A stretch of DNA of 64,000 nucleotides from Bacillus mojavensis RO-H-1 = KCTC 3706 (GTDB taxonomy: Bacteria > Bacillota > Bacilli > Bacillales > Bacillaceae), in the NCBI RefSeq assembly GCF_000245335.1, contig NZ_JH600279.1:806001-870000 (forward strand), in the 5' to 3' direction. Position 1 is the first letter of the stretch, and each line of letters opens with the position of its first letter. Of this stretch, positions 52,709 through 55,681 are shown one piece after another. A program made the translations under genes and the position numbers. The notes beneath the pieces were generated by a model. The model was not told the origin of the DNA. It saw only the letters and a list, made by a program, of their open reading frames with translations, and searched no databases.

Positions 52709-53581
52709 TCATTTCGTTCCGATTAATATATCAACATCAACTGTCAGCTGAGCCGATTTCATTTCTCTAAACTGGTTGATATTTTCAGCCGATGCGGACC
52801 AGGCTAACGGTGTCATGTTCAGAAGCCATTCTACGCCTTGCTGATGAAGCGTTTTGGTATAGCGCATCCTCATCAGATGATCGAGCTGAAAATGTGTGGT
52901 AAAGCGCTCAATTGCAGGTGCATTGGAATAGGTTCGTCTTTCTGAATCTGCGTATAAAACCTGCCTTAGTTCTGTTAAGTAATCCTTTTGAGGGACAACC
53001 TTTATAACCAAACCATCTTTTTTCAGCAGTCTGTGAAACTCTGCATAATTAGAAGGTGAGAAAATCGATAGAATGACATCAAATTGCCGGTCTTGAAAAG
53101 GCGTATTAGCTACATCGGCTACGGCCCACAGCTTTCCGCCACTATTTTTTGAAGCTCGTAAAATGCCATCCTTGGCAATATCAATCCCAATTCCGTGAAC
53201 TGTTTTCTTCTCCTGAAGCAGCTCGCAAACCGCTTTCAAGTGGGTCCCCTCACCGCATCCGCAGTCTAAAATGGTTAACGTTTCTTTTTCAGACTTCCGG
53301 TCACTGATCAAGTCAGCTAATGCCTGATGAAGCGGTGCAAAAAAGTGATACTCTGCCATCAGCCGGCTTCTTGCTTCGAAAAGCCCCGCCCGATAGCTGC
53401 TTTTGACCGGCTTTGTCAGGAAATTTACGTACCCATGCCGGGATATATCAAACGTATGCCCGCTCTTGAAACAAACCAAACTTTTCCAAGATGTGACCTT
53501 CATTGAAGAATCGCAAATCGGGCATCGAAATAGAGAGACAAATTGATTCATATAAGCAGCATGCTTCTTTATGTTTGACAC
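52709..53581 (-). CDS. rlmA: 23S rRNA (guanine-N1) methyltransferase RlmA (YxjB)
   Basis: RlmA(II)-type enzymes methylate N1 of G748 in the 23S rRNA exit-tunnel region; the actinomycete homologue TlrB gives tylosin resistance. The 290-residue protein opens with a zinc motif (CPICDSSM...CFKSGHTFD). A class I SAM-binding domain follows with LDCGCGEGTHL near residue 100 and SIFSPSNYAEF. The GTG at 53581 has GAGGTG at 6 bases; the frame is open to an ATG at 53599, so the start is uncertain by six codons. A leader peptide and terminator precede it. Confidence 0.88.
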   Translation of the reverse strand: MSNIKKHAAYMNQFVSLFRCPICDSSMKVTSWKSLVCFKSGHTFDISRHGYVNFLTKPVKSSYRAGLFEARSRLMAEYHFFAPLHQALADLISDRKSEKETLTILDCGCGEGTHLKAVCELLQEKKTVHGIGIDIAKDGILRASKNSGGKLWAVADVANTPFQDRQFDVILSIFSPSNYAEFHRLLKKDGLVIKVVPQKDYLTELRQVLYADSERRTYSNAPAIERFTTHFQLDHLMRMRYTKTLHQQGVEWLLNMTPLAWSASAENINQFREMKSAQLTVDVDILIGTK

Positions 53582-53616
53582 AAAAAACACCTCATTCATT
53601 CGTTTTTAAATAAATG

Positions 53617-53685
53617 AAAAAGGCATAGACAAATAAACCTGGGCCTATCTAACTTTTTGGCCAGGTCTGGAAAGTCGTCTATACC
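53617..53685 (-). promoter_or_regulatory. Attenuator (terminator hairpin) before rlmA
   Basis: On the minus strand a long hairpin joins GTATAGAC to GTCTATGC (outer stem) and GGCC/AGGT arms to ACCT/GGCC (inner stem), followed by TTTTTC. It begins six bases after the leader stop, so a ribosome stalled at the end of the leader would cover its 5' arm and allow read-through into rlmA. Confidence 0.75.
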
Positions 53686-53690
53686 TGTCA

Positions 53691-53720
53691 TTATCTATAA
53701 CGAATGAATTGAATAATCAT
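53691..53720 (-). CDS. Nine-residue leader peptide MIIQFIRYR
   Basis: An ATG with AAAAGGAG 9 bases upstream opens a nine-codon frame, MIIQFIRYR, ending in TAA. The last three residues are Arg-Tyr-Arg, the +X+ pattern that stalls ribosomes carrying macrolides in leaders such as that of ErmD. Its place between promoter region and attenuator fits a regulatory leader. Confidence 0.75.
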   Translation of the reverse strand: MIIQFIRYR

Positions 53721-53776
53721 AAAAAAGAACTCCTTTTTGCTGCATAGAGGGTTTCCCCGCTATTATGATACATCAA

Positions 53777-54116
53777 TCATCCAGGAATAGGAACGAGATT
53801 CTCAACGACAGGCGGCTGCCCGAACTCCTCACTGTTTAGAAGATCAATTAATAAGCGGGCTGTTTCTTCAGCTCCTCCGTTTTGTTGTTCAATCGGCCCA
53901 ATGGAGCCAGTACACCGGCATTATTGATTACATAAATGCTTCCGGCTCCGTATCAAGGCTAATGCGCTGAAACAATTCATCAAAGAGCGCCTCAATCCCG
54001 TGGCTATCTCTCAAACCACTGCTGTCCAAGTCGATCAGCTTTTGATTATTCTGTCTTGAAATACAGTAAAGCCGATGGTCCGCATGTATTGGCGTGCCTG
54101 TGATGATATGCTTCGT
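53777..54116 (-). pseudogene. Short-chain dehydrogenase remnant (benzil-reductase-like)
   Basis: On the minus strand a good AGGAGGG box precedes ACG (probably a lost ATG at 54116), then KHIITGTP, ISRQNNQKL, INNAGVLAPLGRLNN in a shifted frame. The C-terminal AEETARLLIDLLNSEEFGQP and a stop at 53777 follow. The NNAG motif identifies an SDR like YueD; the catalytic YxxxK segment is deleted. A dead gene. Confidence 0.75.
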
Positions 54117-54220
54117 TTTTCCCTCCTGATCACAATTTCAGCATAGCAATCCAATATGAATTTCCTTTATTTTCTCGACTTCGAAATATAAATTTATTAT
54201 TTTGAAAATAGTTAAAAAGG

Positions 54221-54249
54221 TTGATTTTCAAAAAGTGAAAGGATAAAAT
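54221..54249 (+). promoter_or_regulatory. nupG: SigA promoter of nupG RNA
   Basis: TTGATT, a 17-base spacer and TAAAAT, about 30 bases before the aptamer. Confidence 0.7.
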
Positions 54250-54277
54250 ACTGCTATCATCTTAGAAAAAAGACATT

Positions 54278-54453
54278 CTTGTATATGATCAGTAATATGG
54301 TCTGATTGTTTCTACCTAGTAACCGTAAAAAACTAGACTACAAGAAAGTTTGAATAAATTTGAACGAGTTGAAAAGGACAAGTTCTTTTCTGTTTGCTCT
54401 TATTTTTCACACTTTCTGAACTTCCAGAATTTGTGAAGAATAAGGGCTTTTTT
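54278..54453 (+). ncRNA. Guanine riboswitch of nupG with terminator
   Basis: The aptamer (54278-54344) has P1 CTTGTA/TACAAG and the purine-riboswitch core: TAATATGG before P2, TTTCTACC with the specificity C, and the final GACTAC whose C pairs with guanine. A long terminator stem follows (54396-54453, T6). Guanine binding shuts nupG off. Confidence 0.93.
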
Positions 54454-54487
54454 CATTTCCATAATAAACCTCATAGGAGTTGCTATC

Positions 54488-55681
54488 ATGTACTTTTTAT
54501 TAAACCTTGTCGGCCTCATTGTGATTATGGCAGTTGTGTTCCTATGCTCCCCGCAGAAAAAGAAAATCCAGTGGCGTCCGATCATTACGTTAATTGTTCT
54601 GGAGCTTTTGATTACGTGGTTTATGCTGGGGACAAAAATTGGCAGCTGGGCCATCGGACAAATTGGAAATTTCTTCACTTGGCTGATTGCTTGTGCCAGT
54701 GACGGGATCGCCTTTGCCTTCCCTTCTGTGATGGCAAATGAAACGGTAGACTTTTTCTTCAGCGCACTTCTTCCAATTATTTTCATCGTCACATTCTTTG
54801 ACATTTTAACATATTTCGGCATTTTGCCATGGCTGATTGATAAAATCGGCTGGGTGATCTCAAAGGCTTCCCGCTTGCCGAAATTAGAGAGCTTTTTCTC
54901 TATTCAAATGATGTTTTTGGGAAATACAGAAGCTCTGGCAGTCATCCGCCAGCAGCTCACAGTATTAAACAACAACCGCCTGCTCACATTCGGCTTAATG
55001 AGCATGAGCAGCATCAGCGGTTCTATTATCGGATCTTACCTGTCAATGGTGCCGGCGACATACGTGTTTACAGCGATTCCTTTAAACTGCTTAAACGCGC
55101 TGATTATCGCAAACCTGCTGAATCCAGTGCATGTGCCGGAGGATGAAGACATCATCTATACACCGCCTAAAGAAGAGAAAAAAGACTTTTTCTCTACAAT
55201 TTCTAACAGTATGCTTGTCGGCATGAACATGGTGATCGTTATTTTGGCAATGGTCATCGGCTATGTGGCGTTAACGTCAGCGGTCAATGGCATTCTTGGT
55301 GTTTTCGTACACGGCCTGACCATCCAGACGATTTTTGCTTATCTCTTCAGTCCGTTCGCATTCCTGCTTGGGCTGCCGGTACACGACGCGATGTATGTCG
55401 CTCAGCTGATGGGAATGAAATTGGCAACGAACGAGTTTGTTGCGATGCTTGACTTGAAAAACAATCTTAAAACACTGCCCCCTCACACAGTTGCGGTAGC
55501 GACGACATTCCTGACGTCATTTGCCAACTTCAGTACTGTCGGCATGATTTACGGAACGTACAACTCGATCCTTGACGGCGAAAAGTCAACGGTCATCGGG
55601 AAAAACGTGTGGAAGCTGCTCGTCAGCGGAATTGCGGTATCTTTACTAAGTGCTGCGATTGTCGGTCTGTTTGTGTGGTAG
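54488..55681 (+). CDS. nupG: Purine nucleoside transporter NupG (YxjA)
   Basis: NupG imports guanosine and inosine in B. subtilis. The 397-residue concentrative nucleoside transporter has about nine helices and the CNT motifs GNTEALAVIRQQLT near residue 138 and TSFANFSTVGMIYG near 346. ATAGGAG precedes the ATG. It is monocistronic, behind the guanine riboswitch. Confidence 0.94.
   Translation: MYFLLNLVGLIVIMAVVFLCSPQKKKIQWRPIITLIVLELLITWFMLGTKIGSWAIGQIGNFFTWLIACASDGIAFAFPSVMANETVDFFFSALLPIIFIVTFFDILTYFGILPWLIDKIGWVISKASRLPKLESFFSIQMMFLGNTEALAVIRQQLTVLNNNRLLTFGLMSMSSISGSIIGSYLSMVPATYVFTAIPLNCLNALIIANLLNPVHVPEDEDIIYTPPKEEKKDFFSTISNSMLVGMNMVIVILAMVIGYVALTSAVNGILGVFVHGLTIQTIFAYLFSPFAFLLGLPVHDAMYVAQLMGMKLATNEFVAMLDLKNNLKTLPPHTVAVATTFLTSFANFSTVGMIYGTYNSILDGEKSTVIGKNVWKLLVSGIAVSLLSAAIVGLFVW

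Follow-up and report, generated by a model that had tools for sequence, protein, structure and literature searches.

The short open reading frame upstream of rlmA in the window (the whole stretch of DNA analysed, 64,000 nucleotides) is, judged by sequence, clearly the orthologue of the tlrB (yxjB) switch published for Bacillus subtilis. A tylosin-responsive switch of the tlrB type is the best explanation of this leader, with a probability that we put at about 93%, because the peptide is identical to that of B. subtilis, the published numbered bases fit the leader of a comparison genome, G004 (PMC6851288), and both the conservation of the leader and the counts of its base pairs point the same way. 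The sequence elements and their conservation were observed here, and we infer that the leader behaves in the same manner in this strain. The rlmA leader switch has been in print since 2019 and is thus not new (PMC6851288); the window offers its recognition, as a published tylosin-controlled resistance switch, in a sister species, together with a broad test of its conservation.

In B. subtilis, YxjB was reported to methylate G748, RlmA(II) gives protection against tylosin, and yxjB is induced by tylosin and not by erythromycin, with the ribosome stalling at the RYR end of the nine-residue leader peptide MIIQFIRYR (PMC6851288). Expression is repressed by a NusA-dependent terminator and by a hairpin in which the yxjB ribosome binding site is hidden, full induction needs NusG-dependent pausing at U129-U131, the transcript 3' ends mapped by term-seq were reassigned to that pause, and a leader-lacZ fusion was translated (PMC6851288). 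The same report demonstrated the terminator and hiding structure, induction by tylosin, stalling, pausing, methylation and resistance in B. subtilis, in cells or in vitro, blockage of both hairpins by the stalled ribosome and the self-limiting end of the response being the authors' inference; conservation was described in B. licheniformis and B. pumilus, along with 180 leaders having a C-terminal R/K-X-R/K (PMC6851288). Ribosome stalling at RYR, an attenuator and an RlmA(II) target, as the first-pass annotation had proposed for the window, have been shown experimentally for the orthologous B. subtilis leader with the identical peptide. That annotation had also noted a strong ribosome binding site, a nine-codon RYR frame, and a long hairpin with a T-run before rlmA, all of which are present, on the minus strand:

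53765..53770, minus strand: probable -10 element TATCAT, aligned to TATGAT of the G004 promoter region
53755..53758, minus strand: GGGG at the equivalent of the mapped yxjB transcription start, +1 = 53758 (alignment with the G004 leader)
53738-53730, minus strand: leader ribosome binding site AAAAAGGAG (sequence)
53720-53694 (53688..53720 with stops), minus strand: leader open reading frame MIIQFIRYR, nine codons (sequence; identical peptide in B. subtilis; conserved)
53693-53688, minus strand: tandem stops TAA TGA after the leader (sequence)
53686-53621, minus strand: predicted terminator hairpin, with an apical portion corresponding to the pause hairpin (fold; pair counts in helix 3 of the leader alignment)
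53686-53675 with 53632-53621, minus strand: outer stem of the hairpin (fold)
53668-53659 with 53645-53635, minus strand: apical stem of the hairpin (fold)
53631..53637, minus strand: TTTATTT, equivalent of the T-rich element for NusG-dependent pausing (same letters in the G004 leader; near-invariant motif)
53625..53627, minus strand: TAT, equivalent of the NusG pause sites U129-U131 (G004 alignment; PMC6851288)
53621-53617, minus strand: T-run of the predicted intrinsic terminator (sequence)
53588..53604, minus strand: 3' arm AACGAATGAATGAGGTG predicted to pair with the leader codons, ending in the rlmA ribosome binding site GAGGTG (consensus fold, pair counts)
52709..53581, minus strand: rlmA (RlmA(II), yxjB/tlrB orthologue), probable GTG start at 53581 (profile and PDB sequence matches; start from relatives)

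As in tlrB, the nonapeptide ends in RXR and is followed by tandem stops, a putative intrinsic terminator (judged by structure) lies between the leader and rlmA, and the T-rich NusG pause element before U129-U131 appears to be retained, with the same letters at aligned positions. A stem hiding the rlmA ribosome binding site is predicted by the consensus fold and pair counts; in the minimum free energy fold of the window, the stretch 5' of GAGGTG pairs with the leader codons, the stem ending just before GAGGTG, which is itself unpaired with them. Positions 53715-53600 fold with a minimum free energy of -35.6 kcal/mol (z -6.3; 0 of 200 shuffles equally stable), and 53757-53550 with -66.8 (z -6.3). 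The automatic terminator scan did not list the hairpin of the rlmA leader, probably because of the 8-nt loop limit of that scan, and a generic promoter scan gave only a chance-level score. From the equivalent +1 (53758) to the GTG at 53581 there are 177 nt, matching the published leader length (PMC6851288). When the published base numbering was placed on the G004 leader, with +1 put 177 nt upstream of the start codon, G71, G72, T123-T125, C128, T129, A130, T131 and others agreed, the sole mismatch among the checked positions being the toeprint base U74, which reads G in G004 (PMC6851288). The window element thus has in common with tlrB (yxjB) of B. subtilis the peptide, the tandem stops, the putative terminator and hiding stem, the T-rich pause element and the 177-nt leader, and it differs by single-base changes and short gaps within the leader and by an rlmA start of GTG instead of ATG (PMC6851288).

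Should the window leader operate in this way, the nine codons would be translated in the absence of drug, the ribosome would come off at the tandem stops, and the hairpin would end transcription, while in read-through RNA the leader codons would pair with the region around the rlmA ribosome binding site. Tylosin would make the ribosome stall once Tyr8 occupies the P site and Arg9 the A site; covering the base of both hairpins, it would allow transcription to go on and leave the ribosome binding site open. Time for ribosome loading may come from a NusG-dependent pause immediately upstream of the terminator, and methylation of G748 by RlmA would bring the stall to an end. In ErmC-type translation attenuators, ribosome stalling exposes a ribosome binding site that is otherwise hidden. 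The window element would resemble them in this respect, but would in addition control termination and use a NusG pause. Of the circuit drawn in the first-pass annotation, transcription attenuation has held up for the B. subtilis orthologue; the hairpin hiding the ribosome binding site and the NusG-dependent pause were missing from it (PMC6851288).

The rlmA product matches the NCBIfam G745/G748 methyltransferase models, with best scores below the curated cut-offs, as well as Pfam Zn_ribbon_RlmA and PDB 1p91 (sequence search), and its sequence places it with RlmA(II), the G748 type. The ATG at 53599 in the list of open reading frames is probably not its start; GTG 53581-53579 is favoured because it lies 6 nt 3' of GAGGTG (53593-53588) and because relatives have an ATG, GTG or TTG start near the same place, behind the same kind of site. 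The window RlmA shares 94% identity with that of B. halotolerans and, over the matched part, 65% with that of G004; the leader belongs to a Bacillus close to B. halotolerans. The rlmA DNA (52709-53581) is 72-73% identical to that of five relatives, whereas the adjoining riboswitch/transporter DNA (54135-54600) is 93-95% identical. Horizontal replacement of rlmA was suspected from this contrast and was rejected, the RlmA tree being without sign of transfer: the window groups with B. halotolerans, then with spizizenii/inaquosorum/tequilensis, then with velezensis/nakamurai/siamensis (all starred). Fast evolution of rlmA is enough to explain the contrast with the neighbouring DNA.

The leader is widely conserved. 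In the genus sample, RlmA was matched at E 0.001 in 27 of 44 genomes, with 21 strong matches, and the leader was present at all 21 strong loci (RYR in 20, RFR in 1; starts ATG, GTG or TTG), which is more than chance. Named genomes were also scanned with the RlmA alignment, the best 80 of 485 loci were kept, and the pause/terminator motif, itself read off leaders, was used with up to 5 substitutions as the sole selector; it was found in 37 of these 80 loci and in 0 of 1465 control stretches. The first-pass annotation had named conservation of the leader codons as one point on which its reading could fall, and RXR proved to be kept in 34 of the 37 loci chosen by the hairpin motif alone (32 with a usual start codon, L073 with an ATT start and L096 cut by the contig end). 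The exceptions are two Oceanobacillus sojae loci with the leader MYFQPLLYS and one locus without a leader; the RXR peptide is therefore not indispensable for keeping the RNA. At the O. sojae loci (L080 and L089), the RNA motif stands about 160 nt upstream of rlmA, and, by eye, CCTCTTCTTTAT is still able to pair with ATAAAGAATGAGG.

The leader persists, together with its ribosome binding site, across genera from Bacillus to Paenibacillus, and shows synonymous change. Of 41 distinct leaders collected, 40 were aligned, L117 being left out. In this alignment Arg7 and Arg9 are invariant while their codons vary (CGT/CGC and AGA/AGG/CGT), a conservation that is circular when taken from this set alone, picked as it was by leader pattern, and less so in the genus-sample and motif-selected counts. 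At positions 2-9 of the 40 ten-codon leaders (25 distinct), 10 alternative codons are synonymous and 5 nonsynonymous. The consensus fold of the 40 leaders pairs the leader codons with the rlmA ribosome binding site region; 97.3% of pair cells are held, as against 31-46% with the partner slid by 1-3 columns, and 13 cells are changed on both sides, compared with 2.0 on average in shuffles. Four pairs carry a double change, which 22 of 500 shuffles also attain, and the 18 further standard pair types do not stand out from the shuffled mean of 17.6 (262 of 500 shuffles score as high). An Rfam scan of 53300-54600 to E 1 gave no family at the leader, the matches being a purine riboswitch and a sub-threshold microRNA match at 54382-54457.

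The same nonapeptide design also occurs before macrolide esterase genes. R2, a model of the window-type leader RNA whose E-values, like those of R1 below, are rough, matched seven places in 6 of 299 genomes, the sample for the order-level searches drawn from a larger group: five before an RlmA-like frame, one a weak opposite-strand overlap, and one in genome G672. There, the leader MIIHFMRLR, in a relative of the rlmA-type RNA, precedes an alpha/beta-fold macrolide esterase (NCBIfam NF052610, 459 bits against a cut-off of 420; PDB EstT, E 7e-125). Esterases like it (E 1e-60 or better) were found at 19 places in 18 of the 299 genomes, and upstream regions, read for about 330 nt, held a nonapeptide leader behind a ribosome binding site at 12 of these 19 (L240, L241, L243, L248 and L250-L257; for example L255:1376-1510). 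The peptides are MIIKWIKLR, MIIKWVRLR, MIIKWIRLR, MIIKWVRVR, MIIKWIKQR, MVIKWIKLR and MIIHFMRLR; L244 has MIIKWVRLNN instead, and within about 330 nt upstream no leader was seen at L242, L245, L246, L247, L249 and L258. At 11 of the 12 leaders the RNA is unlike the rlmA type. The esterase leaders may fit two-state translation attenuation, because in the L255 fold a CUCC stretch further upstream is the pairing partner of the esterase ribosome binding site (z -3.0; 1 of 200 shuffles as stable), whereas the consensus of the 11 leaders forms a different helix with CUCC in the loop (double change in 1 of 14 pairs); they look closer to the ErmC type than the window element does. A nonapeptide DNA pattern, which took no account of the downstream gene but had been drawn up once both sets were known, hit 16 places in the 299 genomes (4 before RlmA, 11 before an esterase and 1 orphan), and its reversed form hit none. 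The orphan, L263 (G660:C1:1867275-1867318), consists of MIIKFIRLR and a ribosome binding site, and no open reading frame of at least 120 residues starts within 500 nt downstream.

EstX and EstT act on 16-membered macrolides (PMC11214618), and six Gram-positive esterases were reported to raise resistance to 16-membered but not to 14-/15-membered macrolides (PMC12704417). Since the esterases hit 16-membered macrolides and RlmA(II) guards against tylosin, both targets of the nonapeptide match the stalling drug, which suggests a sensor peptide common to the rlmA and esterase genes. The main text of PMC12704417 makes no mention of a leader peptide, attenuation, or inducible or regulated expression, and that of PMC11214618, likewise, none of a leader, attenuation or inducibility. 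We found no report of a leader peptide with a macrolide esterase in the open-licence literature, which is no proof of novelty; the leader before esterases is apparently unreported, and the link is a lead worth following.

A different leader, MTHxMRLRFPTLNQ-like, stands at 10 of the 80 best RlmA loci, 219 to 552 nt upstream of the match (L103, L110, L114, L118, L119, L130, L134, L135, L137 and L139), and resembles ErmDL, with its residues MTHSM, RLR, FPTL, N13 and Q14 (PMC8298421). All ten loci fall in one RlmA clade of 16 rows (support 100/100; L115 left out as too short), in which six rows have no leader found and none has a window-type leader. R1, a covariance model of the RLR-type RNA, gave 111 matches in 95 of the 299 genomes, at least one of them an opposite-strand echo. 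The longest open reading frame starting within 1,000 nt was grouped by BLAST for 90 of these 111 matches: 24 were Mph-like, 22 ABC-F, 14 HflX, 11 Mef-like, 6 RlmA, 5 Erm and 2 LmrB-like, 4 were unrelated, and 2 matches yielded no frame under these criteria (one of the two, L156, is followed by an RlmA-like frame). In an NCBIfam check of ten R1 proteins, Mph, Mef and RlmA scored below the curated cut-offs, and the LmrB-like protein below that of LmrB itself. The window genome gave no R1 match and has no ErmDL-type RLR leader, and a search of five RLR cassettes against Rfam at gathering level returned an unrelated fluoride riboswitch and nothing else. Leaders with RLR have been described for ErmDL (PMC8298421) and HflXr/rli80 (PMC6310831), and attenuation for ermK (PMC5418344); the survey is a wide view of a known kind, and a link of the RLR leader to an RlmA clade was not found in the literature searched. 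The window element is like these systems in having a short, presumably drug-stalled leader and attenuation of a resistance gene, but in the ErmDL type RLR lies inside a peptide of about 14 residues unrelated in sequence to the window leader, and the ErmDL-like leaders seen here, unlike it, have a longer RNA and precede several kinds of gene. In L110, L114, L118, L139 and L142, a hairpin and then GGTTTATTTG are seen by eye between leader and rlmA, and GGTTTATTTG resembles the rlmA leader's element for NusG-dependent pausing. The L119 cassette, in the roughly 570 nt that precede rlmA, carries an insertion of about 200 nt relative to L114, which by eye we take to resemble an IS200/IS605-type end.

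We think it rather probable that M-[IV]-I-[QKH]-[FWY]-[IVM]-[RK]-X-R is a dedicated sensor of 16-membered (tylosin-class) macrolides in two RNA switches, terminator/NusG before rlmA and translation attenuation before esterases, sensor and effector being matched by drug class, and that leaders with an internal RLR serve broad macrolide genes, among them a separate RlmA clade. A sensor of macrolides in general, or of any translation stress, is an improbable alternative: R/K-X-R/K does stall other macrolide-responsive leaders, ErmDL (PMC8298421) and HflXr (PMC6310831), and the B. subtilis comparison covered only tylosin and erythromycin, but erythromycin gave neither induction nor a toeprint there (PMC6851288). 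Moreover, the gene downstream of the pattern site acts against 16-membered macrolides in 15 of 16 cases, whereas RLR-type leaders are found before several kinds of macrolide gene. The macrolide sensing claimed by the first-pass annotation is accordingly borne out for tylosin in the B. subtilis orthologue and fails there for erythromycin, and the leader does not look like a general macrolide sensor.

It is less likely still that the leader codons are conserved only as an RNA strand pairing with the rlmA ribosome binding site, the peptide being irrelevant. Codons 2-8 do lie largely within the pairing arm, the third positions of TTC ATT CGT vary little, and the O. sojae loci have changed the peptide and apparently kept the pairing. 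However, Gln4, Tyr8 and Arg9, mostly outside the main stem, are largely kept with synonymous change, the nonapeptide design recurs before esterase genes in unrelated RNA, and replacement of RYR by AYA virtually abolished induction in B. subtilis (PMC6851288), all of which weaken conservation through pairing alone. A plain terminator belonging to an upstream transcript, next to a reading frame that arose by chance, would account for the terminator-like hairpin, but is hardly credible given the leader and ribosome binding site kept with synonymous change from Bacillus to Paenibacillus and the functional published orthologue (PMC6851288).

If esterases do sit behind the tlrB sensor peptide, their expression may be inducible, and susceptibility tests without an inducer could understate Gram-positive macrolide esterases. 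The same nonapeptide plan in unrelated RNAs would also be a natural experiment on how 16- are told from 14-membered macrolides.

Around the switch, 53771-54150 is a degraded coding-like stretch between the rlmA promoter and a riboswitch, three pieces of which had no match in Pfam. The riboswitch is a purine riboswitch (RF00167, 85.5 bits; 54259-54360, plus strand) before a divergent open reading frame at 54488-55681, which looks like a transporter.
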